Positions 5,641 to 19,922 of a stretch of DNA of 36,580 nt are shown here, in pieces; position 1 is the stretch's first letter, and each line of letters opens with the position of its first letter. The translations under genes were made by a program, and so were the position numbers. This stretch comes from Planctomycetaceae bacterium (GTDB lineage: Bacteria; Planctomycetota; Planctomycetia; Pirellulales; Thermoguttaceae), in contig JAITIZ010000382.1 in assembly GCA_031279215.1 (NCBI GenBank), positions 1-36,580 of the forward strand, read 5' to 3'. Below the pieces are notes generated by a model, which ran no database searches, was not told the DNA's origin, and was given only the letters and a program-made list of their open reading frames with translations.

Positions 5641-5878
5641 TAATCCAATTACGCGGCTAACTCAATCACACAGCTAATTCAATCACGCGGCTAATTCAAT
5701 CACACGACTAATCCAATCACGCGGCTAATCTAATCACGCGGCTAATTCAATTACGCGGCTAATTCAATTACGCGGCTAATTCAATTACGCGGCTAATTCA
5801 ATTACGCGGCTAATTCAATTACGCGGCTAATTCAATCACGCGGCTAATTCAATTACGCGGCTAATTCAATCACACGGC
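5641..5878. repeat. 17-bp tandem array, 14 copies, overlapping the pyrC stop codon
   Basis: Fourteen head-to-tail units of consensus taattcaattacgcggc cover 238 bases without interruption, preceded by a partial copy at 5632-5640. Units 7-11 are identical and the outer units differ by one to four bases. Each unit contains a near-palindrome (TAATTcAATTA) and a CGCG core. The last copy (5862-5878) contains the pyrC stop codon (complement of 5870-5872) and its last two codons. The array may act as a transcription end, a nucleoid or protein binding array, or may simply be a neutral minisatellite. Confidence 0.95.
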
Positions 5879-7132
5879 ACGTCTGCCGGAAATGAAAACT
5901 GCAACAGATTTACCTGTCAACTCCATACCTATAAAAGGCGAATTTTTACTCTTTGACTTAAAATCTGTAACAGCGATTTTCCATTTTAAGTCTGGATCAA
6001 TTACTGTTATATCAGCATCTTCACCAATTCGTAAAGTTCCTTTTGGAATGTTCAGAATCTTTGCGGGATTAATAGTAAGTTTCTCAATTAAACTCGACCA
6101 AGTCAAAATATTAGTTTTTATCAAAGTCGTAATAACTACAGGTAAAACGGTCTCCATACCAATCACACCAAAAGGAGCTTGATCGATTTCACGCATTTTT
6201 TTCTCAATTGCGTGCGGAGCATGATCGGATGCAATTACATCAATTGTGTTATCTTTCAAACCTTCAATACACGCTTCCACATGATTCTTACTCCGTAACG
6301 GCGGATTCATTTTGAAATTCGGATTGAAAGATTTCAAATAATCATCTGTCAACATTAAATGATGCGGCGTAACTTCCGCCGTAACTTTTATGCCGCGTAA
6401 TTTTGCGCGTCTTATTTCAGATACAGCACCTTCCGTAGAAACGTGCATTACGTGTAATTTTCCGCCTGTAATTTCAGCCAACGTAATATCTTGAGCGACC
6501 ATAACATCTTCAGCCGCAACCGGCATACCGCGTAATCCTAACAACAACGACGCCATACCTTCGTGCATTACACCGCCTTTAGTCAACGACGTAACTTCGG
6601 GATGACTCAATAACGGCTTATCAAACATCAGACAATACTCTAAAGCGCGTCTTGTCAGCTCTGCGTCTTCTACCGGAGAACCGTCGTCGCTGCATGCAAC
6701 TGCACCTGCTTTGAAAAGTTGACCAAGCTCGGCGAGTTCTTTACCTTCACGATTTTTACTTATACAACAAATAACATAAACATTACAATTTCTACTGCGA
6801 GCCGCTTGCTGTTGAATGAACTCGACAATCGCCTGCGAATCTATCGGCGGCGATGTGTTCGGACAACAAGCAATAGAAGTGAAACCGCCATTGACAGCTG
6901 CTCTCGTGCCGGTTTCAATTGTCTCATCCTCTTCAAGACCGGGTTCACGTAAATGAACGTGCATATCGATCAATCCGGGAATTACTATTTTTCCCGCAGC
7001 ATCATACACGTCATCTTGACTATCCGGTTGACAGCCTAAAGAATAAATCTTGCCGTCTTCTATACGAATATTACAGACCTTGTCAAGCCCCTGACTCGGA
7101 TCAACTACACGACCATTAATTATTGATAACAT
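5870..7132 (-). CDS. pyrC: Dihydroorotase (class I type)
   Basis: 420 aa from an ATG at 7132. The enzyme closes N-carbamoyl-L-aspartate to L-dihydroorotate in pyrimidine synthesis, in the cytoplasm. Signatures seen: DMHVHLREPG with metal ligands His58 and His60; SDDGSP with Asp150, the bridging residue of the lysine-free type; His177 in SHPE; His230 in LHVMHVST; and the catalytic Asp303 in SDHAPH. Length and motif order match the bacterial class I enzymes. It is divergent from the BMC operon across a 500-base gap and seems unrelated to it. Its last codons and stop lie in the final unit of the 17-bp array, so the C-terminus (GRRAV) may have been shaped by the repeat. Confidence 0.93.
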   Translation of the reverse strand: MLSIINGRVVDPSQGLDKVCNIRIEDGKIYSLGCQPDSQDDVYDAAGKIVIPGLIDMHVHLREPGLEEDETIETGTRAAVNGGFTSIACCPNTSPPIDSQAIVEFIQQQAARSRNCNVYVICCISKNREGKELAELGQLFKAGAVACSDDGSPVEDAELTRRALEYCLMFDKPLLSHPEVTSLTKGGVMHEGMASLLLGLRGMPVAAEDVMVAQDITLAEITGGKLHVMHVSTEGAVSEIRRAKLRGIKVTAEVTPHHLMLTDDYLKSFNPNFKMNPPLRSKNHVEACIEGLKDNTIDVIASDHAPHAIEKKMREIDQAPFGVIGMETVLPVVITTLIKTNILTWSSLIEKLTINPAKILNIPKGTLRIGEDADITVIDPDLKWKIAVTDFKSKSKNSPFIGMELTGKSVAVFISGRRAV

Positions 7133-7935: not shown

Positions 7936-8024
7936 TTGATCAAAACGTGTCTCAATTATTCGATGGAAAAAATTAAACTGCTCTCAAAATTTTGGTTCAA
8001 GCTGCATTGCATACTTACTTATTG

Positions 8025-8200
8025 TAAAGCAGACTTTTTGTAAAGCAGACTTTTTGTAAAGCAGATTTTTTATAAAACAGATTTTTCGTAAGGCAGATTT
8101 TTCGTAAAACAGATTTTTTATAAATCAGACTTTTTGTAAGACAGATTTTTTGTAAAACAGATTTTTTATAAATCAGATTTTTTATAAATCAGACTTTTTA
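8025..8200. repeat. 16-bp tandem array, 11 copies, inside the BMC operon
   Basis: Eleven head-to-tail units of consensus taaaDcagaYtttttR (D = A, G or T) fill the gap between the first BMC-P gene and the aldehyde dehydrogenase, ending 93 bases before the latter's start. Each unit ends in five or six T, giving a T-tract every 16 bases. The first two units are identical and the rest differ at two to four positions. A small hairpin (gccgttttatacggc, about 8256-8270) lies between the array and the ribosome binding site. The remainder of the 7936-8293 gap holds no gene. Confidence 0.93.
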
Positions 8201-8293: not shown

Positions 8294-9772
8294 GTGCAAG
8301 GATTGAGTGAACCTGTTATTCGCAATATAGTCGAAGAAGTAATCAACCGAATAAGTCAACGAGTTAAACATAACGTTGGTTGTCCGAGTGGTCAACCTCA
8401 TTTTGCATTTTCATCAACTACGCGTAGTTTTCGCGGCTATAATGGACTGTTTGCGGATCCTAACGACGCTATCGCCGCTGCTCGAATTGCATTCGAGGAA
8501 TTGCAACGAAAAACAATAGCTGAACGCGGCGGGATAATCGAAATAATCAGACGAATCGTAATTGAGCAAGCAACTGAACTCGGTACGCTCGAAATGAACG
8601 AAACTAAAATCGGACGTCTTGAACATAAAATCGATAAACTGATCGGATTAGGCAAAAATGCACCCGGTATAGAATTTCTTAAAAGCGATATATTCAGCGG
8701 CGATCACGGATTGACATTAATCGAATACTCGCCTTTTGGTGTTATTGGTGCTGTTTCACCGGTAACTCATTCTTTGCCGACTATTGCAAACAATGCGATC
8801 AATATGATTGCGTCTGGTAATACTGTTGTTTTCAATCCGCATCCAAGCGGTAAACGAATTGCAGCTGAAGGTGTCCGCCGATTCAATGCTGCTATTTTCA
8901 ACACGTATGGAATTGATAACTTGATCAATGTCGTTGTTGAACCAACGATGCAAACAGCTGACATTATTTTTCGTCATCCTGATATTGCTTTGATTATCGT
9001 TACCGGCGGTCCCGGAGTCGCTAAAGCTGCTATGTCTCAAACAAAACGTGCGATTGTTGCCGGACCCGGTAATCCGCCTGTCGTCGTAGATGAGACCGCA
9101 AATCTCGAACAAGCTGCAAGGAGTATTATCTATGCCGGCGCTTACGACAATAATTTATTGTGTCTTGCTGAAAAGGAAGTTTTTGTCGTAAATTCTGTTT
9201 TCGACGAGATGATGAAAGCAATGGAAAACGCTGGCGCGGTTCGATTAAACGCTGCCGAAGTCAACGCATTTACAGATAAAGCAATCGTTCAAGCCGGAGA
9301 AGGTAACGCTAAACACGACGCACCAAGCCGCGATTTACTCGGTAAAAATGCAAAAGTTCTCGCTGATAGTATCGGAAAAAATATTCCTGATAAAACAGAA
9401 TTGATATTCGGTGAAACAGATGAAACCAATCCTTTCGTTTCTGTCGAACAGATGATGCCTTTTCTGCCGTTTGTAAGAGTTCACGATGTAAACGAAGGAA
9501 TACGACTCGCAAAAAAATACGAACACGGATTTCGGCACACCGCTGTTATTCACTCAAACAATGTAAATACAATTACAAAAATGGCGAAAGAACTCGATAC
9601 GACTATTTTCGTTACAAATGGTCCAAGTACTGCCGGAAACGCCGGAGGAAATGCAGGTTTCTCGTCGTTTTCTATCGCTGGTCCAACTGGTGAAGGAATT
9701 ACAACGCCGCTCACTTTCACAAGATCAAGACGTTACGCTCACGTGGGAAGCCTACACATTTTAGGCAAATAA
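8294..9772 (+). CDS. CoA-acylating aldehyde dehydrogenase of the microcompartment (PduP/EutE-like)
   Basis: 492 aa from a GTG at 8294, chosen because AGGAG lies about 10 bases upstream. It oxidises an aldehyde (here probably lactaldehyde) to the acyl-CoA with NAD+. Residues 5-21 (SEPVIRNIVEEVINRIS) form an amphipathic helix followed by a loose linker, the form of an N-terminal encapsulation peptide. The catalytic domain follows: EYSPFGVIGAVSPVTHS near 144-160, TGGPGVAKAA near 237-246, and the catalytic Cys290 in NNLLCLAEKEVFVV, which is the CoA-acylating pattern. The C-terminal half contains the FTxxITxP-like loop near TGEGITTPLTFTR. It is the internal signature enzyme of the BMC locus. Confidence 0.93.
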   Translation: MQGLSEPVIRNIVEEVINRISQRVKHNVGCPSGQPHFAFSSTTRSFRGYNGLFADPNDAIAAARIAFEELQRKTIAERGGIIEIIRRIVIEQATELGTLEMNETKIGRLEHKIDKLIGLGKNAPGIEFLKSDIFSGDHGLTLIEYSPFGVIGAVSPVTHSLPTIANNAINMIASGNTVVFNPHPSGKRIAAEGVRRFNAAIFNTYGIDNLINVVVEPTMQTADIIFRHPDIALIIVTGGPGVAKAAMSQTKRAIVAGPGNPPVVVDETANLEQAARSIIYAGAYDNNLLCLAEKEVFVVNSVFDEMMKAMENAGAVRLNAAEVNAFTDKAIVQAGEGNAKHDAPSRDLLGKNAKVLADSIGKNIPDKTELIFGETDETNPFVSVEQMMPFLPFVRVHDVNEGIRLAKKYEHGFRHTAVIHSNNVNTITKMAKELDTTIFVTNGPSTAGNAGGNAGFSSFSIAGPTGEGITTPLTFTRSRRYAHVGSLHILGK

Positions 9773-9800
9773 AAAATTGTAATCATTCGATTTATTTATT

Positions 9801-9970
9801 GTAACGAAAAACATAACAAACGAAAAAATCCTGTAGAGACTCAATACCTTGTGTCTCGAATTTTCGATTTTATTTATTGTAACGAAAAACGTAACAAACG
9901 AAAAAATCCTGTAGAGACACGATACCTTGTGTCTCGAATTTTCGATTTTATTTATTGTAACGAAAAACGA
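9801..9970. repeat. 78-bp direct repeat, two copies plus a partial third
   Basis: Units begin at 9801 and 9879 and a partial third begins at 9957, with the same phrase gtaacgaaaaac at each start. Each full unit contains a hairpin of the form gagacac...gtgtctc with a short loop (clearest in the second copy near 9915-9936). Related text (gagacacaatac, ccttgtgt) recurs around 13790-13880. The repeat fills the gap between the aldehyde dehydrogenase and the second BMC-P gene; the partial third copy ends directly at that gene's start. Confidence 0.9.
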
Positions 9971-9972
9971 TA

Positions 9973-10227
9973 ATGATCAAAGCAAAGGTAATTGGCACGG
10001 CAACGTCAACAATTAAGCATTGTTCACTCGACAGTTGGAAGCTGCTTGTTGTGAGTGACGGTTTCGACGTGTATATCGCTTTGGATAAATTTGGTGCCGG
10101 TGAGGGCGATAACGTAATTGTTACAAATGACGGAGCGTATGCGTCTGAAGTTGTCGGTGATCGTAACTCACCGGCGAGATGGTGCGTGATCGGATTAATT
10201 GACGATATTACAAATAACAAAAATTAA
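9973..10227 (+). CDS. BMC-P (EutN/CcmL-type) shell vertex protein, copy 2
   Basis: 84 aa with an ATG start. It begins MIKAKVIGTATSTIKHCSLDSWKLLVV, then ALDKFGAGEGDNVIVTNDGAYASEVVGDRNSPARWCVIGLIDD. The glycine-rich GAGEGD turn and the VIGLID ending are EutN/CcmL features. It is shorter than copy 1 because the mid-domain loop is reduced, and it carries an unusual Arg-Trp-Cys just before the last strand. The partial third 78-bp repeat ends right before the ATG, so no clear Shine-Dalgarno is seen. It is probably a vertex pentamer of the same shell. Confidence 0.9.
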   Translation: MIKAKVIGTATSTIKHCSLDSWKLLVVSDGFDVYIALDKFGAGEGDNVIVTNDGAYASEVVGDRNSPARWCVIGLIDDITNNKN

Positions 10228-10303
10228 TTGAATTGCCGAATCAAAAATTGATCATATTATCGCAATTATCGCAAAAAAAATTTTTAAGATACGGAATTAA
10301 ATT

Positions 10304-11068
10304 GTGACAATCAGTAGTACAAACAATAGGATTACAGACAATATTAATATTACCGATATTGTTCAAAAAATTTTGGCAGACCTTAAAATCAAGCCGGAAT
10401 TTACCGAAATTTGTCATAAGACCGCTGATAATTCAATAACGGACAAAGATAATACGGTCAAAGATAATATTGAACAAACAAATACAATCGGACTTGATGA
10501 AACCGAATTGTTAATCGACAGCGGACATGTAATTTCACTCGGCGACATCAAAAGACAACTTGACAATAATCACAATCAAAAAATTTTGAAAATAGTTATT
10601 CCGTCTAAAAGTATTTTGACGCCTTCGGCAAAAGACGAAATAAAAAAACGCGGTCTCGGAATTATCGTACAAAAAACCGGTGAAAGTAATATTAGAAATA
10701 TCTCACTTTGGTTAGCAGAACACGGCAACGCGATAGTTTCGCCGCCGATATTGAAAAAATTACAAGCCGAATATTATTTGACACGGAATCAATTTATCAA
10801 CATTTCCGAAATCGTTGAAGAATCTGTAAGAATTACAGGACAAAAAAAACACGGCGTAATTTTGACACAACATCCTGCAACTGCCTTGAGAGTAATCGGA
10901 CTATGCGAATCGTTACGGGTGATCATTGCAATTGATCCCAAACAAGTGTACATCGACGCAAAAGAAATAAACGCAAACTTGATGATAGTATCACCAACAC
11001 GAATAAACGAATTAAATATCATCGAATCGATAAAACAATTTACAAAACAATTTGTAACTATTCAATAA
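10304..11068 (+). CDS. Unrecognised BMC-associated protein, possible cargo or adaptor
   Basis: 254 aa from a GTG start; I cannot assign a function. Residues about 13-29 (NINITDIVQKILADLKI) form an amphipathic helix like an encapsulation peptide, followed by a polar Asn/Asp/Thr-rich linker to about 62. Residues 73-123 contain SGHVISLGDIKRQL and SILTPSAKDEIKKRGLGIIV, phrasing like the N-terminal region of EutT and related BMC proteins (TPSAxDxLKxxGI). The C-terminal half (from about 131) alternates strands and helices (HGVILTQHPATALRVIGLC, NANLMIVSP), in the manner of an RpiB/LacAB-like alpha/beta fold; this is an inference. It sits between two BMC-P genes, so a role inside the organelle is likely. 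Confidence 0.8.
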   Translation: MTISSTNNRITDNINITDIVQKILADLKIKPEFTEICHKTADNSITDKDNTVKDNIEQTNTIGLDETELLIDSGHVISLGDIKRQLDNNHNQKILKIVIPSKSILTPSAKDEIKKRGLGIIVQKTGESNIRNISLWLAEHGNAIVSPPILKKLQAEYYLTRNQFINISEIVEESVRITGQKKHGVILTQHPATALRVIGLCESLRVIIAIDPKQVYIDAKEINANLMIVSPTRINELNIIESIKQFTKQFVTIQ

Positions 11069-11206
11069 TTTTTCCTTATATTCGGTGTTTTTCGACTGTT
11101 TCGTTTTTTTGTGAATTTGTTTTTTTGTGAATTTCGTATTTCGTATATTTCGTATTTCAAAAAAAAAGAGTGCAGGTAAAAATATCGCCAAACGGAGAAA
11201 TGAATA

Positions 11207-11488
11207 ATGAGAATAGGAAAAGTAATTGGAACGTTGACGCTTTCTAAATCGCATGATTCACTTCGCGGCAGTAGTTGGCGGATAGTTGTACCTGTCAGTG
11301 AAAGTAATTTGTACGAAAATACAGAACCCGAGTCTGAAGAACTAATAGTTTACGACGATTTAGGTACCGGCAGCGGTGAATTGATTGCTTTTACGGAAGG
11401 TGCCGAAGCGGCGAAACCTTTTTTTCCATCGCTTAAACCTGTTGACGCTTACAACGCCGCAATATTAGACAAAATAGATTTACAATAA
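11207..11488 (+). CDS. BMC-P (EutN/CcmL-type) shell vertex protein, copy 3
   Basis: 93 aa with GGAG about 10 bases before the ATG at 11207. It starts MRIGKVIGTLTLSKSHDSLRGSSWRIVVPVSE and continues VYDDLGTGSGELIAFTEGAEAAKPFFPSLKPVDAYNAAILDKIDL. The GTGSGE turn and the AAILDKIDL end match the family. The region just after the first strands carries an acidic insert (ENTEPESEE). Three diverged BMC-P paralogues in one operon are characteristic of the planctomycete/verrucomicrobial BMC type. The upstream gap (11069-11206) has AT-rich micro-repeats of tttttttgtgaattt and cgtattt. Confidence 0.92.
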   Translation: MRIGKVIGTLTLSKSHDSLRGSSWRIVVPVSESNLYENTEPESEELIVYDDLGTGSGELIAFTEGAEAAKPFFPSLKPVDAYNAAILDKIDLQ

Positions 11489-11708
11489 ATTTAAGATTGA
11501 ACATTTTAATAATTGACGATTTTAATAATTGTAATGTTGAATGAATTTTTATATCCTGACGGGATATTTTCAATATAGCCGATGGTATTGTGCCGGACAT
11601 GAATTAATTGTTACGTTTTAATAATGCAATATCAACGGACAATCGGATTGCAGAATTTTCAAAGCCCGCATTGGGTATAACAATCAAACAAATTTAAGGA
11701 TTATTGAG
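11489..11708. other. Intergenic spacer with a small hairpin before the aldolase
   Basis: A short stem ATATCC/GGATAT (11551-11556 and 11562-11567) followed by T4 lies between the third BMC-P gene and the aldolase. It is too weak to call a full terminator but might reduce read-through. No other structure is seen. Confidence 0.35.
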
Positions 11709-12680
11709 ATGCTTAACATTCATCAAGTTAAAGAGGAGATTTGCGATATTGGTCGTCGTATTTACAATCGCGGATTTGCGGCGGCAAATGACGGCAACAT
11801 ATCTTATCGAATAGACGAGAACCGTGTCGTTTGTACGCCGACTGGTATTAGTAAAGGTTTTATGAAACCCGAAGACCTTTGTATCGTTGACATGGAAGGT
11901 AATCAAATTTCAGGTACAAAAAAACGTACAAGTGAAATATTACTTCATTTGACAATAATGAAATCACGTCCTGAAGTCAAATCGGTTGTTCATTGTCATC
12001 CGCCTCATGCAACAGCGTTTGGGATAGCGCGAGAGGCGATACCGCAATGTCTAATGCCCGAAGTTGACATTAACATGGGTGATGTTCCGATAGCAAAATA
12101 CGCATTGCCGGGCGGTCAAGGATTTGCTGATGTCGTAATGCCGTATATTATGAAAAGTGATATTATTGTTCAAGCTAATCATGGTACGGTTAGTGTTGGT
12201 CCAACTATCGAGCGGGCGTATTGGCTGGCAGAAATGTTAGACGCTTATTGCAGAATTTGTTTAATTGCACGTGATCTCGGTAAAGTTGAATATTTCACAC
12301 GGGATGAAGCGGAAGATTTATTACAATTAAAACAAAAATGGGGATTCAAAGACCCGCGAGCTGAATTAGAAAATTGCGAACTCTGTGCAAACGATATTTT
12401 TCGTGAAAGTTGGAAAGAAACAGGCGTCGGACACAGAGCTTTTCAACCGCCGGCATTTAAACGCAAAGATGATATTCTTGATCAAAAATCTACAAATCCG
12501 AATTGCAAATGCGGAGGCAGCAGATGTAAGATGAACTCACAAAATTCACAAAATTCACAAGGCTCACAAGGCTCACAAAATCCTGCGAACATTACTGATT
12601 CAAATGTACCGGCAAGCGATGAATGTGAGTTAATAATAAAAACAATAACAGACCGTGTAATTAAAGCATTGGCAGGTTGA
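11709..12680 (+). CDS. Class II (FucA/RhaD-like) aldolase with C-terminal encapsulation peptide
   Basis: 323 aa, ATG preceded by AAGGA about 10 bases upstream. The class II aldolase/adducin domain occupies residues 1 to about 220: DGNISYR near 28, the catalytic Glu76, zinc ligands His95 and His97 in HCHPPH, and His158 in QANHGT. Relatives cleave L-fuculose or L-rhamnulose 1-phosphate to lactaldehyde and dihydroxyacetone phosphate. The usual enzyme is about 215-260 aa, so this one has a long tail: CELC at 223-226, CKCGGSRC at 266-273, a Ser-Gln-rich linker (275-292), and a final amphipathic helix (ELIIKTITDRVIKALAG) that looks like an encapsulation peptide. It would feed the aldehyde dehydrogenase inside the compartment. 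Confidence 0.92.
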   Translation: MLNIHQVKEEICDIGRRIYNRGFAAANDGNISYRIDENRVVCTPTGISKGFMKPEDLCIVDMEGNQISGTKKRTSEILLHLTIMKSRPEVKSVVHCHPPHATAFGIAREAIPQCLMPEVDINMGDVPIAKYALPGGQGFADVVMPYIMKSDIIVQANHGTVSVGPTIERAYWLAEMLDAYCRICLIARDLGKVEYFTRDEAEDLLQLKQKWGFKDPRAELENCELCANDIFRESWKETGVGHRAFQPPAFKRKDDILDQKSTNPNCKCGGSRCKMNSQNSQNSQGSQGSQNPANITDSNVPASDECELIIKTITDRVIKALAG

Positions 12681-12784
12681 CGTAATAAGAATAAAAAATA
12701 TAATTTCGTCTCGTTTAAATTTACTGAATTTATAAATTATTAGAGATAAACGAAACGAATATTATGTATATCAGAATTTGTGTT

Positions 12785-12833
12785 ACCGATCGCAAATTGT
12801 AGTTGGAACAATTTGTGACCGGTTGTTTTTTTT
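12785..12833 (+). terminator. Strong rho-independent-like terminator after the aldolase
   Basis: A 16-bp stem (12785-12800 with 12808-12823; 14 Watson-Crick pairs, one G-T wobble, one mismatch) with a 7-base loop is followed by a T tract (ttgtttttttt). It lies about 105 bases after the aldolase stop and 63 bases before the next gene, so it probably ends the BMC transcript. An attenuator or regulator-binding palindrome for the next gene is an alternative. Confidence 0.8.
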
Positions 12834-12895
12834 GTGATTGTTTATTGTTTATTTAAAGTTTTGTCCTGTTATGGGCAGCACATTGGCGGTGGGCT

Positions 12896-13681
12896 ATGCA
12901 AGTTGACATAATTGATCCGGTTTTACGTTCTTATCCCAAGCTGGAGTATCCGCGTTATAAATTTGGGGAGCGGGTAGCGTTTTTTATTCCGTGTTTTATT
13001 GAGCAGTTTTATCCGTCGGTAAAGCGTGCGATGTGTCGTTTATTTGATGCTGAGGGTATATCGTTTGAGATTCCATCTGGGCAGACGTGTTGCGGACAAC
13101 CGGCGTTAAACAGCGGATATTGGAAGGAAGCTCGTAAAGTCATGGAGTATTTCACTAAAATATTTGGAGTTTATGACTGGATTATTACGCCTTCGACTTC
13201 GTGTGCTGCTATGTGTAGAGTTTTTTTTGGATATTTATCGCCGAACTCGATTCATGCTGAAGTTGGCAAACGTGTTTTTGATGTAAGTGAATTTTTTGTC
13301 AATTTATTTGGGAAGATTGATTTCAATGCGAGTTATAGCAAGCGGGTTGCGCTTCATATTGGTTGTCATGGACGCCGTGAGTTAGGGATAGTAGAGCAAC
13401 CGTTATTGTTATTGAATAATATTAAAAATTTGATTTATACTCCGTTACCGTTTATGGAGGAGTGTTGTGGTTTTGGCGGAACGTTTAGTGTAAAAACGCC
13501 CGGAACTTCGATTGCGATAGGGCAACGAAAAATATCGAACATTGCAAGCTCTGGATGTGAAGTCGTAGCGACGTCGGATTTAAGTTGTGCAATGCACTTT
13601 GGGGGGATGATGCAAAGAGACAACAAGTTAAAAAACATTCCGATAAAACACATAATAGAATTACTCTCACCAGAAGAATAG
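12896..13681 (+). CDS. LutA/GlcF-type cysteine-rich (CCG domain) oxidoreductase subunit
   Basis: 261 aa from the ATG at 12896; the nearby ATG at 12871 is out of frame. Two cysteine-rich CCG domains are complete: PCFIEQFYP with CCG at 65-67 and Cys103 in TPSTSC, then HIGCHGRR with Cys157, CCG at 190-192 and Cys231 in DLSCAMHFGG. This is the pattern of LutA (YkgE), the heterodisulfide-reductase-like subunit of L-lactate oxidation. LutB and LutC partners are absent here. PVC-type BMC loci are known to contain such a gene, so a role in oxidising lactate derived from lactaldehyde is plausible. The terminator before it suggests its own promoter or regulated read-through. Confidence 0.88.
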   Translation: MQVDIIDPVLRSYPKLEYPRYKFGERVAFFIPCFIEQFYPSVKRAMCRLFDAEGISFEIPSGQTCCGQPALNSGYWKEARKVMEYFTKIFGVYDWIITPSTSCAAMCRVFFGYLSPNSIHAEVGKRVFDVSEFFVNLFGKIDFNASYSKRVALHIGCHGRRELGIVEQPLLLLNNIKNLIYTPLPFMEECCGFGGTFSVKTPGTSIAIGQRKISNIASSGCEVVATSDLSCAMHFGGMMQRDNKLKNIPIKHIIELLSPEE

Positions 13682-13693
13682 CGGCTAGTGCTT

Positions 13694-13745
13694 AGTGGTC
13701 AGTGGTCAGTGGTTAGTGGTCAGTTCGCATGCGGAGATTATCATC
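13694..13745. repeat. Heptad tandem repeat plus shared block, copy A
   Basis: Four tandem units of agtggtY (13694-13721) are followed by agttcgcatgcggagatta. The same arrangement with two heptads recurs at about 15172-15212. Each copy begins about 15 bases after the stop codon of the gene before it. Confidence 0.85.
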
Positions 13746-14053
13746 GGCTATAATTTCGAATCACCAATCACCTACGCTATTTTGTAGAGAGACACAATAC
13801 ACCCCGTGTTTCTGTGTTATGTGATAAACTTTCTATCATCGGAATTTCCGAAGATGCACAATACACCTTGTGTTTCTGTGTTATGTGATAAACGTAATAT
13901 TTCGGTGAAAAATTTCTTTCAGAAGGTTTCAAATTCTTTTTTTACAAACCTTATTACCTTATTAAAAAATCGTTTTTCAATAATAAGGTAACAAGGTTTT
14001 GTTTTTTTGTGATTTTTAAACACGAAAAGCACGAAAAGGAGTTAACTATCAAG
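13746..14053. other. Intergenic region with hairpin-bearing duplicate
   Basis: No gene is seen. Around 13785-13895 the phrase acaatacaccYYgtgtttctgtgttatgtgataaac occurs twice in tandem and is related to the hairpins between the aldehyde dehydrogenase and the second BMC-P. From about 14015 the words aaacacgaaaagcacgaaaagga appear and recur near 18570. Confidence 0.5.
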
Positions 14054-14172
14054 AAGTCCCGCTAGGGACGACACTTTATTAACCGTATGCTTTAGCTTAC
14101 GGATCAACGCAATAAACATATCCAAGTCCCGCAGGGACGACACTTTATTAACCGTATGCTTTAGCTTACGGA
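14054..14172. repeat. Two direct copies of a ~50-bp double-hairpin repeat
   Basis: Copies at 14054-14103 and 14124-14172 are identical except for one inserted base. Each contains two stem-loops: gtcccgc-agggac, and ccgtatgc-ttta-gcttacgg (one bulge pair). This is the form of a REP-like intergenic palindrome family. The copies lie upstream of the SDR gene. Confidence 0.88.
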
Positions 14173-14378
14173 AGGAGCTTTTACTACACATATTGTTTTT
14201 CTTTTTAAGTTAATTACAATTTGCGGCTTGTTTGAAACTCGTGCAAGTTGTTTCTTGACTCTTTTGTTGAGCTTGCACAAGATTAGTTTTTGATAAATTG
14301 ACACATAAATTGCCAATAGTCAAAATTAAAAAAATAAATTTAAAGGAAAATTCAGAAATTACAAAAAACAAAAAAATA

Positions 14379-15155
14379 ATGGAATTCAAAGACAAAGTAG
14401 CATTAGTAACCGGCGCAACCGGTTCAATCGGTAAAGAAATAGCTAAACGTATTGTCGCCGAAGGCGGCAAAGCCTTCATTACAGATATCGATCAATCAAA
14501 AATCGATGCCGTATCAGAAGAAATAGGCTCAAACTGCAGCGGATTAGCAGCAGATATAACTAAATTAGATGCCGTTACTTCAGTTGTCGAAGCATGCCGG
14601 AAAAAATTCGGTAAAAATATTAACGTACTAGTTAATGTCGCAGGTACGTCCGGTAAAGGTAATAAAATCGAAGATGTCGATGAAAAAGAATGGGATTTTA
14701 TCTATGCCGTCAATGTTAAAGGTACGTTCTTTTTTATCAAACGCATAATGCCGATAATGAAAGAACAAGGTAACGGTTCAATCGTAAATTTTTCAAGCAA
14801 GTCCGGAAAAACAGGCTCGGCATTGATGAGTGCATATAGCTCGGCAAAAGGCGCAATCATTACACTGACACAAGCCCTAGCTTACGAAGTTGCAAAATTG
14901 AATATTCGTGTAAACTGCGTTTGCCCAGGTATAACCGAATCAACCGGCGTATGGACACACGTTTCTGCCGACTATGTCAATAACATGAAAATGCCTCACG
15001 ATGAAATCGTAAAAACATTCACCGCAAAAGTTCCAATGGGACGCTTAGCACATATTGAAGATGTCGTCAATGTAGCTTGCTTCTTAGCAAGCGATAGATC
15101 CGCATACATGACCGGTCAAGCAATAAACATAACAGGAGGCCGCGAAATGCACTGA
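14379..15155 (+). CDS. Short-chain dehydrogenase/reductase (SDR)
   Basis: 258 aa from the ATG at 14379 (MEFKDKVALVTG); the frame is open 81 bases further upstream, but that extension is Lys/Asn-rich and not SDR-like. The classical SDR layout is complete: nucleotide-binding TGATGSIG (11-18), NVAG near 86-89, catalytic Ser140, Tyr153 and Lys157 (YSSAK), RVNCVCPG, and the C-terminal SDRSAYMTGQAINITGG. It reduces or oxidises a small alcohol, ketone or sugar acid with NAD(P); the substrate is unknown. Its position 700 bases after the BMC locus invites a link to fucose or rhamnose acid metabolism, but the repeats between them argue against one transcript. Confidence 0.88.
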   Translation: MEFKDKVALVTGATGSIGKEIAKRIVAEGGKAFITDIDQSKIDAVSEEIGSNCSGLAADITKLDAVTSVVEACRKKFGKNINVLVNVAGTSGKGNKIEDVDEKEWDFIYAVNVKGTFFFIKRIMPIMKEQGNGSIVNFSSKSGKTGSALMSAYSSAKGAIITLTQALAYEVAKLNIRVNCVCPGITESTGVWTHVSADYVNNMKMPHDEIVKTFTAKVPMGRLAHIEDVVNVACFLASDRSAYMTGQAINITGGREMH

Positions 15156-15609: not shown

Positions 15610-18411
15610 TTATTCTAATAATGGAATCGTGTATAACATCGGTTGACTTAAAGAGTCTGACGGTAATGGTGTTGCATGGATGGTTATTTCTTTTACACCT
15701 GATCTCAATAGTTCGCGTCCGTTTGGAATAGTATAAGTATATTCAACTCTGCCGAATCCTTGCCGTGTTACAAATGTTTGTAAATATTCACGTCCTCTTG
15801 CACGAAGTCTGCAAACATACGATCGCTCGCGTTCTCCGTTGTTTATAAACGCTTGTGTTACTTCAATATCTCCTGCTCGATTCATTCTTGATGAAAATTC
15901 TAATTTTACATCTTTCTCGCCGATATAAATTTCATCGTAAACTGCAAACTTGCGTTGAACCGTACCGGTCGTTGTTATGTCGATTCTAAATTTTTGCAAT
16001 CCTGTATTCGATTGTGAATTTAATATAATTCCAAAATCTGATTTGCCCGTTCCTCCTGAGTCCAAAGTAAGCGCAAGAGGAGACTTTATCCGCCATGTAT
16101 CTTCTCTCGGTTCGATAACAGAAAATTGAACCGCTGCCGGTAAATTTGTATCATTGACAAATGTAAACGGAATTCGCTCTTCATTGTTTGTCCGACTCGG
16201 AATTTCATCTCTATCTAACTTGAATCCTAACCGCATCCGAACTATATCTGCATCAAGTCCTCTTACAAAAATTGGAATCTGTCCTACTATTATTTTCTGA
16301 TTAGAGCCTTCTAATTCAGGCGTAATTCGTTTACCCCACACGTCAATTATTTCTACTTCCTCGCCAAGATATAAAGTTTCTGCCGTAGGTGAATTTTCTG
16401 AAGCCGAATCATTCCACACTACCATAACAGCGCCGCCGCCGAAATGATCAACGAAATTATAATTCTTACTCCGATTCGGTAACTTTATTTGTCCTAAATA
16501 ATCCCGCCCTGACAACAATACCGATGTTGTCCGCCATGCTAAAAAAATCTCATTCGGAGTTGCATCCGAATTTAAAACACCGCGTTGCTCACTAATCGGC
16601 TGCGATAAAAAAATCCCGTCAACTCCCGCAACTTTACTCACAACCATCTTGCGGACAATATCAGTGATACGTCCGGCTATATCATATTTATCACCCGATA
16701 AAATCGAAAGTGAAATCAATTTACGGACGTTAATAGCCGAAGACGCTTCTAAACTTTGTTCCAGATCAACCGCAGTCATTTCATCGGGAGTGTGAATTGA
16801 AACAAAATCACGCTGCACAAAATTACGTTTGTTTCCTGCTGTTGCTGTATCTTTCTCCGGCGTTGTTTGTGATTCAATATTTGTAAACGGAAACGGTTGC
16901 GTCCAATCCCACGCAACTCCAAGACTAAGCCCAAGATTCTTTCGATCAAAACTTCGTTGTATTTCACGAAATCGATTTTCAAAATTAGTAATATTTACTA
17001 CACTCAAATCATCATCTCCGGTCAATTGCCAATTTTTTATCAACAACGAATTTTCTTGAATTACCGGCTGAATCGCTTCCGTCCATGTTGTTACAGGAAC
17101 AGCAAAAATTGCAGCGGCATTAACTCTGCCTATTTTTATTTTATCTTTAACATTTTTCGGCACCGGCGATAACAGTCCCGTAAGCTGCATTCCCATAGGT
17201 GTAAATGTTTCACTTATCTGAAGGAACCGGCTGCGTTGTTTAGCGTCATCACCGCCTATCCACGCCGGAATTTTCAATTGCGATACTCCCGATAAACTTA
17301 ATTGTAAACGCCGATCATAAATTTCGTTTAAACTCCATCCGTCAAGATTCCAACCGAAAATTCCGTCTTGAGTAATTGCTGCCTGATCAATTACAACAAA
17401 CGTTATCGGCATAGAATTTCGTAATGAATCTTCAAAAAAAACTCCGGGCGGAAGATGTAATTTAGAAATATACGATTTCGGCGTTTCAACTCTAATTCGA
17501 TAAAACCCCGGTGAATTTATCGGTAACGGCGACCAAGATGCAACACCTTCAAAAACACTCCATCGATCATTTTTCGGCACAATGAACTGCGAAGCTGGTC
17601 TGTTACCAATAATCATTTCGATTTCACGGCTGGCTATCGGCTGCCCTAAAGCGTCTTCGATAATAAATTTCAATTTGTCTTGATCAGGATCAAATCCTGT
17701 CATCACACATTCGACCTCGATTCCGGTCTTGTCCGTGAAAATATGATGCTCATTAGACATCGATAATTTTACATTCGGACTTTCTTTTATTTCAACATTC
17801 GTGAAATAAACTTTCGCATTAAAATCGCGCCGCTCACTTTGAGTTGTCAATAATCCGATAGAAACAGAATCAATTTTTTCATCGTCCGCCCGAAACGGAC
17901 CTATAACAAGCTTCCGCCAACCGTCACTCGATTTGATACTTTCCGACCGAACCGTAACAATCGAATCGCCGCCTTCCTTACTATAAAAAGCTGCAAAAAT
18001 GAAAACATCATTAAAAACGATATTCTCCATAGACACAAACGCTGAAAACGTGTAACACATTCCGCGCCGAACTTTTATCTTTGGAGAAAATGCCGCCGCA
18101 CTGCCGCCTTCAATCGACATCCGTAACGCATTATTTCCAAATTGACTTCGATTTTCTACTATTCGTATATCGATATAATCAGGGAATTGAATATTACGTT
18201 CAATGCCGCGTTTTCGTGTCCAAGAATCGGGCCAACCGTCTTCATCGATATCGGCTGCTCTATCAAAAAGTGTCCGAAAGATCGTCCCGCCCGATCTAGT
18301 ATATCGCGGCAATTGACCGGGCAACGGTTTATCAGCACAATATATCGTTGCGCTAAATAAAAAAGAAATAACAATACAAATACAAAAAATAATTCTCAAT
18401 ATCATTCGCAC
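15610..18411 (-). CDS. Large exported protein of unknown function
   Basis: 933 aa from a GTG at 18411 (an ATG two codons later is possible; GAGAGA lies at better spacing for the GTG). Residues 1-26 are a signal peptide (MRMILRIIFCICIVISFLFS...YCA). After it, GGTIFRTLFDRAADIDEDGW has a calcium-loop-like Asp-rich turn. Residues about 85-210 resemble a carbohydrate-binding-type beta-sandwich (GNNALRMSIEGGSAAAFSPK). The middle contains GIFGWNLDGWSLNEIYDRRL and could hold a barrel-like fold, and the end is again beta-rich. I recognise no named family; a cell-surface or sugar-related role is only a guess. Inverted repeats flank the gene closely on both sides. Confidence 0.8.
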   Translation of the reverse strand: MRMILRIIFCICIVISFLFSATIYCADKPLPGQLPRYTRSGGTIFRTLFDRAADIDEDGWPDSWTRKRGIERNIQFPDYIDIRIVENRSQFGNNALRMSIEGGSAAAFSPKIKVRRGMCYTFSAFVSMENIVFNDVFIFAAFYSKEGGDSIVTVRSESIKSSDGWRKLVIGPFRADDEKIDSVSIGLLTTQSERRDFNAKVYFTNVEIKESPNVKLSMSNEHHIFTDKTGIEVECVMTGFDPDQDKLKFIIEDALGQPIASREIEMIIGNRPASQFIVPKNDRWSVFEGVASWSPLPINSPGFYRIRVETPKSYISKLHLPPGVFFEDSLRNSMPITFVVIDQAAITQDGIFGWNLDGWSLNEIYDRRLQLSLSGVSQLKIPAWIGGDDAKQRSRFLQISETFTPMGMQLTGLLSPVPKNVKDKIKIGRVNAAAIFAVPVTTWTEAIQPVIQENSLLIKNWQLTGDDDLSVVNITNFENRFREIQRSFDRKNLGLSLGVAWDWTQPFPFTNIESQTTPEKDTATAGNKRNFVQRDFVSIHTPDEMTAVDLEQSLEASSAINVRKLISLSILSGDKYDIAGRITDIVRKMVVSKVAGVDGIFLSQPISEQRGVLNSDATPNEIFLAWRTTSVLLSGRDYLGQIKLPNRSKNYNFVDHFGGGAVMVVWNDSASENSPTAETLYLGEEVEIIDVWGKRITPELEGSNQKIIVGQIPIFVRGLDADIVRMRLGFKLDRDEIPSRTNNEERIPFTFVNDTNLPAAVQFSVIEPREDTWRIKSPLALTLDSGGTGKSDFGIILNSQSNTGLQKFRIDITTTGTVQRKFAVYDEIYIGEKDVKLEFSSRMNRAGDIEVTQAFINNGERERSYVCRLRARGREYLQTFVTRQGFGRVEYTYTIPNGRELLRSGVKEITIHATPLPSDSLSQPMLYTIPLLE

Positions 18412-18689: not shown

Positions 18690-19922
18690 TCAATTTCTAG
18701 GTGAATCGTCCGATAATTCCCAAATCCGCGCGGTTTTATCCCCACTTGCCGTAACAATCTTTTTGCCATCGGGTGAAAACACAGCTGAGCTCACCGCATC
18801 GGTATGTCCTTTGAATGCTTTTAATTCTTTTCCCGTTTCTGCGTCCCAAATCCGCGCGGTTTTATCATAACTTGCCGTAACAATCGTTTTGCTATCGGGT
18901 GAAAACACAGCAGAATACACCCAATCGGTATGTCCTTCGAGAGCTTTTAATTCTTTTCCCGTTTCCGCGTCCCAAATCCGCGCGGTGTCATCACCACTTG
19001 CCGTAACAATCTTTTTGCTATCGGGTGAAAACACAGCAGACCGCACCAATTCGGTATGTCCTTTGAGTGCTTTTAATTCTTTTCCCGTTTCCGCGTCCCA
19101 AATCCGCGCGGTTTTATCAAAACTTGCCGTAACAATCGTTTTGCCATCGGGTGAAAACTCAGCAGACCAAACAGTTTCTGTATGTCCTTTGAGTACATTT
19201 AATTCTTTTCCCGTTTCCGCATCCCAAATCCGCGCGGTGTCATCCCAACTTGCCGTAACAATCTTTTTGCCATCGGGTGAAAACACAGCAGATATCACAT
19301 TGTAGGTATGTCCTTTGAGTGCATTTAATTCTTTTCCCGTTTCCGCGTCCCAAATCCGCGCGGTGTCATCCCAACTTGCCGTAACAATCTTTTTGCCATC
19401 GGGAGAAAACACAGCAGAAAGCACCTCTTTGGTATGTCCTTTGAGTGCATTTAATTCTTTTCCCGTTTCCGCGTCCCAAATCAGCGCGGTGTTATCATAA
19501 CTTGCCGTAACAATCTTTTTGCCATCGGGTGAAAACACAGCAGAATACACCCCTTTGGTATGTCCTTCGAGTTTGATATATTCCTTAATATATTCCAGAA
19601 TATTTTCTTCAGTAGAATTGTTTGTTGGAACTTCCGCAGTTGAATTTGTTGGTTGCGCCGGAATATTTTCATTAATAGCAGTGTCAGTGTTGGTCGCATT
19701 GTCGTTGTTATCTTTGTCATTGCGGTTCAGTATTCCCACAAAAATAATTAAACACACCAACGCAACTATTCCCAATAGTGCAAACAAAGATTTTGTTACT
19801 TTTCCTTTAAAAAACTGATTCGCATCAGTACGATCAGAACTATCTTGACTTGTCGGCACAATTGTTGCCGCATTAAATATATCGCTATTCGATGGAGAAT
19901 TTTTGTCTTGGTTGTTGGACAT
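18690..19922 (-). CDS. Membrane-anchored seven-repeat WD40 propeller with near-identical blades
   Basis: 410 aa from an ATG at 19922. An N-terminal polar segment (1-44, KGKVTK just before the membrane) precedes one transmembrane helix (about 45-66, SLFALLGIVALVCLIIFVGIL), then an Asn/Thr-rich linker and seven WD40 repeats of 42 aa from residue 118 to the end. The charge pattern suggests the propeller lies outside the cytoplasmic membrane. Repeats share SAVFSPDGKKIVTAS and TARIWDAETGKEL almost exactly. Differences concentrate after GHT (KG, KE, YN, ET, EL, DW, DA), at the residue after the next Val (Y, L, I, W, R, Y, S), and after TAS (Y, W, W, F, G, Y, G). Seven blades close one propeller. 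It probably binds a protein partner that is not identifiable here. Confidence 0.9.
   Translation of the reverse strand: MSNNQDKNSPSNSDIFNAATIVPTSQDSSDRTDANQFFKGKVTKSLFALLGIVALVCLIIFVGILNRNDKDNNDNATNTDTAINENIPAQPTNSTAEVPTNNSTEENILEYIKEYIKLEGHTKGVYSAVFSPDGKKIVTASYDNTALIWDAETGKELNALKGHTKEVLSAVFSPDGKKIVTASWDDTARIWDAETGKELNALKGHTYNVISAVFSPDGKKIVTASWDDTARIWDAETGKELNVLKGHTETVWSAEFSPDGKTIVTASFDKTARIWDAETGKELKALKGHTELVRSAVFSPDSKKIVTASGDDTARIWDAETGKELKALEGHTDWVYSAVFSPDSKTIVTASYDKTARIWDAETGKELKAFKGHTDAVSSAVFSPDGKKIVTASGDKTARIWELSDDSPRN
18705..19571 (-). repeat. 126-bp tandem repeat encoding WD40 blades, seven copies
   Basis: The coding DNA is repeated with a 126-base period, and the strings encoding TASxDxTARIWDAETGKEL are almost identical base for base between copies, including third positions. 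That indicates recent duplication or ongoing conversion. The last copy diverges after RIWEL. Confidence 0.93.

Follow-up and report, generated by a model that had tools for sequence, protein, structure and literature searches.

A single WD40 blade has recently been amplified in the protein encoded at positions 18690-19922 of the window (the whole 36,580-nt stretch of DNA analyzed here): the blades retain a near-identical scaffold, and five positions in each blade (35 residues) have diverged far faster than silent sites. On balance, and with moderate confidence, the picture that best explains the gene as a whole is an anchored, exported propeller with recently amplified blades, a selected binding face and an anchor from the kinase family. 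The window is contig C448 of a draft genome (5.46 Mb, 716 contigs) whose nearest named relatives are Planctomycetaceae MAGs, for example Roe453_bin113, Cd354_bin63, Po218_bin82, and Im510_bin130; these isolate labels we take to denote termite-gut metagenome bins. The parts of the gene are as follows.

18690..19922 (-), whole gene, 410 aa: tail, transmembrane (TM) helix, linker, seven-bladed WD40 propeller
19791..19922 (-), residues 1-44: disordered N-terminal tail, predicted to be cytoplasmic
19725..19790 (-), residues 45-66: TM helix (helix 37-66 in the structural model)
19572..19724 (-), residues 67-117: acidic, Asn/Thr/Pro-rich linker, then the ring-closing outer strand (110-118)
19599..19793 (-), residues 44-108: TM and linker homologous to a congeneric receptor Ser/Thr kinase (55-58% at the amino acid level; 76% at the DNA level over 190 nt)
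19446..19571 (-), blade 1: positions 6, 7, 9 are K, G, Y and positions 25, 27 are Y, N
19320..19445 (-), blade 2: at the same positions, K, E, L and W, D
19194..19319 (-), blade 3: Y, N, I and W, D
19068..19193 (-), blade 4: E, T, W and F, K
18942..19067 (-), blade 5: E, L, R and G, D
18816..18941 (-), blade 6: D, W, Y and Y, K
18717..18815 (-), blade 7, strands a-c: D, A, S and G, K; the fourth strand is supplied by residues 110-118

Among the Pfam matches listed, all are to WD40-type domains, the other 117 N-terminal residues of the protein being tail, TM helix, and linker, and PHROGs and NCBIfam returned just weak repeat matches or ones far below cut-off, such as TolB. As a candidate for a known defense system, the protein gave only a partial HEAT-ARM_XIII match in PADLOC through its WD40 part, which is uninformative. 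No conserved operon partner of the WD40 gene was found within the window.

The initial annotation had described seven near-identical blades that differ after the GHT motif, after the following Val and after TAS, and the open reading frame, the repeat spacing, and the variable columns all bear this description out. Blades are 42 aa long, the GHT motif occurs seven times at a spacing of exactly 42 residues, and TRF delimits an array at 18718-19572 (period 126 bp, 6.8 copies, 89% matches). Blades 1-6 differ from one another at 9-19 of 126 nucleotides and at 4-10 of 42 residues (identity 0.76-0.90, mean 0.82), and the divergence of blade 7 lies mostly in its C-terminal tail. Read from blade 1 to blade 7, the variable columns are KKYEEDD at position 6, GENTLWA at 7, YLIWRYS at 9, YWWFGYG at 25, and NDDKDKK at 27; most other columns are constant. 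When only the 32 codons that every blade has are considered, variation affects 13 of the 15 nucleotides of these five hypervariable codons, compared with 10 of 81 in the framework, and the mean pairwise nucleotide difference is 0.57 at the hypervariable codons versus 0.04 elsewhere. None of 20,000 column shuffles equaled the observed concentration in the best five codons.

A dN/dS-type comparison among the repeats agrees with the diversification that was originally proposed. By simple counting (Nei-Gojobori type, uncorrected for multiple changes and without a likelihood site test), pN is 0.61 at the five codons, while framework pS is 0.08 and framework pN 0.04 among blades 1-6, a reading that presumes a single recent origin of the blades. 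The excess of pN at the five codons over framework pS points to recent blade amplification and diversification under selection, and not to relaxed constraint alone, which would give pN close to pS. In neutral simulations the observed residue diversity was never reached at a pairwise divergence of 0.1, was reached in 0.4% of runs at 0.2, and was reproduced at divergences of at least 0.3, so the argument for selection hangs on the low framework pS. Conversion from other genes could raise pN as well, but the draft genome holds no other blade copy of more than 77% identity; among 131 blades from 22 genes, the nearest framework relative of all seven window blades is found in the same gene. The young genes L036 and L077 have a like pattern, with ratios of 14.6 and 6.9, and in older arrays pS is higher and the ratio drops to about 0.7-2.7, as would follow from a face that has already reached saturation.

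An AlphaFold2 model built from 19 related sequences predicts a propeller of seven blades, nearly the whole of which has a pLDDT of 92-99. The modeled strands of blade 1 span residues 124-129, 135-140, 144-149, and 155-160, with positions 6 and 7 (residues 123 and 124) at the d-a turn, position 9 (residue 126) within strand a, position 25 (residue 142) in the b-c turn, and position 27 (residue 144) at the start of strand c. The established geometry of WD40 propellers assigns these two turns to the top face. Three contact residues have been defined there (Wu et al., 2012; PMC3419727): D-1 directly precedes the Asp of the tetrad, and R1 and R1-2 lie where strand a begins. The tetrad of the window blade is H4, S10, D26, and W32; hence R1-2 corresponds to position 7, R1 to position 9, and D-1 to position 25. 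The bottom-face loops SPDGKK and DAETGKE are nearly constant among blades. Together, the modeled strands and the known contact positions 7, 9, and 25 argue for the earlier proposal that the variable residues lie on one face, and the structural and evolutionary part of that interpretation is well supported.

Anchoring in the membrane had also been proposed, and is consistent with the TM helix of the model. Four K/R residues lie in the 15 residues before the helix and acidic residues follow it, and from this charge pattern alone the propeller is predicted to lie outside the cytoplasm. The homologous TM and linker segment belongs to a Ser/Thr kinase protein of the congeneric genome G013 (contig C126), whose N-terminal NNVFDQPTMIPSSQN is weakly like SDIFNAATIVPTSQD of the window protein (residues 13-27; shuffle p = 0.006). 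To judge from these alignments, an origin from a receptor kinase, or modules held in common with one, is most likely, and the protein looks like either a receptor minus its kinase or a captured, kinase-derived anchor. The weak relation at residues 13-27 makes loss of a kinase likely, if unproven, and a swap of the anchor module is equally possible. Three related G013 kinases end in a sulfatase-modifying (FGE-like) type domain, named from sequence, and locus L195 of G019 (G019:C32, complement of 358-1557) encodes an N-terminal domain, a single WD40 blade, the shared EETIPAQ linker, and then Sel1-like repeats; its single blade may be what is left of an array that collapsed, or the collapse may have arisen in assembly. 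The kinase, sulfatase-modifying-type, and L195 architectures suggest that anchors, linkers, and ectodomains have been exchanged as modules.

Repetitive propellers occur in further combinations among the related genomes. One is joined to a vWA-like domain (L062, G001:C543), another to a zinc-ribbon, a TM segment, and Sel1-like repeats (L060, G019:C195), and a third to a TM segment and a sulfatase-modifying-type domain (L075, G003:C82), which suggests that the propeller travels between differing, often exported or membrane, architectures. The 642-aa open frame L063 (G006:C5) has a repetitive WD40 propeller fused to what its sequence suggests is a membrane M56/BlaR1-like peptidase region, making this protein a candidate for an unusual sensor.

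No orthologue of the window gene was found in 20 congeneric genomes. A query with its N-terminal part recovered fragments only, in 3 of the 20: the one in G005 is weak, doubtful, and interrupted by stops, and the other matches are anchor or linker pieces within other architectures. The neighboring gene at 15610-18411 (-) encodes a 933-aa, secreted-looking protein with a second copy on contig C165; it is present in 18 of the 21 genomes of the genus, at 70-81% in five relatives and near 47% in most others. In the stretches read, no congeneric relative has a WD40 gene beside its 933-aa gene, the contig being short on that side in some, and this absence suggests that the window gene may be short-lived.

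Elsewhere in the window, a 17-bp repeat (TAATTCAATCACGCGGC) occurs 14 times at 5641-5878, at the 3' end of a dihydroorotase-like gene (5870-7132, -), and a 16-bp repeat (TTGTAAAACAGATTTT) occurs 11 times at 8022-8199, just before an aldehyde dehydrogenase-like gene starting at 8294. That gene opens a row of aldehyde dehydrogenase-, class II aldolase-, LutA-, and SDR-like genes (8294-15155), so named by reading their sequences, which together resemble a planctomycete sugar-degradation cluster of the microcompartment type.

Several histories could lie behind the variable face. The one that survives best, which we regard as possible but short of an even chance, is a one-off burst: a single amplification, quick specialization to one fixed partner, and constancy thereafter. 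The sister gene C333 is consistent with this course, in that its blades 1, 2, 3, 5, and 6 pair with the same-number blade in G012 or G014. At the five positions its identity to these orthologues is 0.73 and 0.82, with 0.86 and 0.80 in the framework (Fisher p 0.13 and 1.0, non-significant), and pN is 0.11 with pS of 0.44-0.48, a purifying ratio of about 0.25. In a conventional WD40 family (C568 type), the five sites are the most different within the propeller (identity about 0.10) and are fixed between species (0.89-0.96). Given such conservation between species in C333 and in the C568 type, diversity between blades is no evidence of quick change at the level of strains. That the receptor could be fast-evolving, as the initial annotation suggested, is not supported so far: its gene lacks an orthologue among the 20 congeneric genomes, and the sister gene C333 keeps its blades in place across species, with the five positions about as conserved as the framework. 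However, over greater distances conservation at the five sites falls somewhat below that of the framework (0.50 vs. 0.69 and 0.57 vs. 0.73, non-significant), and because the window gene lacks an orthologue, a one-off burst is not separable there from a continuing arms race.

That continuing arms race, in which the protein would be a sensor whose blades are shuffled and re-diversified between strains like those of the fungal HNWD incompatibility genes, we consider unlikely. It draws on the use of the same codons as in HNWD and on the restriction of the window gene to its lineage. Blades of the related G017 genes often pair across loci, with a framework sequence (by nearest relative) common to three or four loci of that genome, in line with repeat exchange, and genome G043, assembled as a single contig, pairs its 6-7-9 motifs with differing 25-27 motifs (LP.L with A.K or G.N; DP.T with G.N or R.N), which looks like shuffling. 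Against it, the face sites of C333 are held between species, and the window protein has no effector or cell-death domain. The pattern shows blade diversification within one propeller and does not demonstrate an arms race. An extended form, in which termite-gut Planctomycetes run a cell-surface counterpart of HNWD made of kinase-derived exported propellers with exchangeable blades and five face positions continually re-diversified against partners, prey, hosts, or phages, is more doubtful again. One genus has both newly amplified and settled stages, and with them the choice between an arms race and a one-off specialization becomes testable.

It is improbable that the protein is a nascent propeller of unsettled function heading for decay. 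Among highly repetitive propellers, many carry disruptions or do not last (PMC9218822), the gene is missing from the 20 congeneric genomes, and L195 could be a single-blade remnant beside the same linker; yet the framework pN/pS of the window gene is 0.5 with an intact reading frame, and neutral change cannot raise pN to 0.61 at the five face codons while leaving it at 0.04 in the rest. We give still less credence to an assembly artefact that merged blades of several strains or paralogues into one array. Repeat arrays of this sort misassemble from Illumina data and have not been reconstructed from them (PMC12222747), and the draft genome comprises 716 contigs, so the blades may have been placed or counted wrongly, but their sequences are likely real: there are exactly seven blades in an intact frame, their nearest relatives all lie within the same gene, and the single-contig genome G043 has the same pattern. 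Mutagenesis targeted at the blades by a diversity-generating retroelement would suit the sharp confinement of change to few codons but almost certainly did not occur: this draft genome has no second blade copy as template, its sole reverse transcriptase trace is a broken, sub-threshold fragment, and the codon pattern does not fit, with free variation at third positions and no change at the adenines of the framework.

In the favored account of an anchored, exported propeller with a selected face, a single-pass membrane protein would hold the seven-bladed propeller outside the cytoplasmic membrane by a flexible linker. Selection may have favored an asymmetric binding face for a periplasmic or gut-lumen ligand, protein or other, and the variants were probably spread and mixed with the help of conversion or unequal exchange among the blades. 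Having no kinase, the protein could serve as a binding, docking, or decoy receptor, or could signal through a partner. Of the functions put forward initially, recognition can fairly be inferred, and adhesion would be a guess.

Among known systems, PkwA-type receptor Ser/Thr kinases with WD40 domains resemble the window protein in propeller fold (Foldseek rmsd 1.0 Å) and in their kinase-type TM and linker, but have a cytoplasmic kinase domain where the window protein has only a 44-residue tail. WRAP proteins (the cyanobacterial Npun_R6612 and the designed WRAP-T) likewise consist of recently amplified WD40 blades, with a Foldseek rmsd of 0.7-0.8 Å for the WRAP-T designs; natural WRAP proteins are linked to STAND or TIR, whereas the window protein has neither a STAND ATPase nor a TIR domain.

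The fungal HNWD proteins (het-d, het-e; PMC1805685, PMC2873952, PMC12222747) share near-identical WD40 repeats and signs of repeat exchange with the window protein. In Podospora anserina HNWD, codons 7, 9, 25, and 27 are positively selected and codons 8 and 26 conserved (Paoletti et al., PMC1805685), in a numbering that agrees with that of the window blades, which starts at LxGH. The fungal analogy drawn in the initial annotation thereby holds codon for codon at 7, 9, 25, and 27, and the window protein has position 6 in addition. Unlike HNWD, it has no HET or NACHT domain and has seven blades instead of about eleven; its propeller would be extracytoplasmic, by charge pattern, whereas that of HNWD is cytoplasmic, and the gene is known from a single genome.

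The closest class is that of the highly repetitive WD40 proteins. As far as the accessible part of Hu et al. (2017; PMC5587647) goes, about half of the most repetitive of these are bacterial, diversity is high at hotspot sites, and WD40 proteins are enriched in Planctomycetes; a position-by-position match to the fungal selected codons was not found in that part. The window protein resembles this class, so far as the same part describes it, in being bacterial, with blade identity above 0.7 and hotspot diversity: pairwise identity is at least 0.7 among blades 1-6, the level that defines the class, and the top-face sites R1-2, R1, and D-1 (positions 7, 9, and 25) are within the five most diverse. 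In a set of 24 repetitive WD40 proteins from bacteria of several phyla, between-blade diversity ranks 25 > 7 > 9 > 6 > 27 (the top five of 42 positions), which with the work of Hu et al. indicates that the phenomenon is already known in kind. The window protein differs from the class in being a single exported propeller on a kinase-type anchor, and this anchor and linker are the new element of the present case. It thus joins a known class, highly repetitive WD40 proteins with diversified contact sites, and has an HNWD-like sensor face without being an HNWD protein. Fungal recognition proteins and bacterial exported propellers, otherwise differing in every domain, vary at the same WD40 codons, which suggests that the blade itself is a general evolvable binding face.
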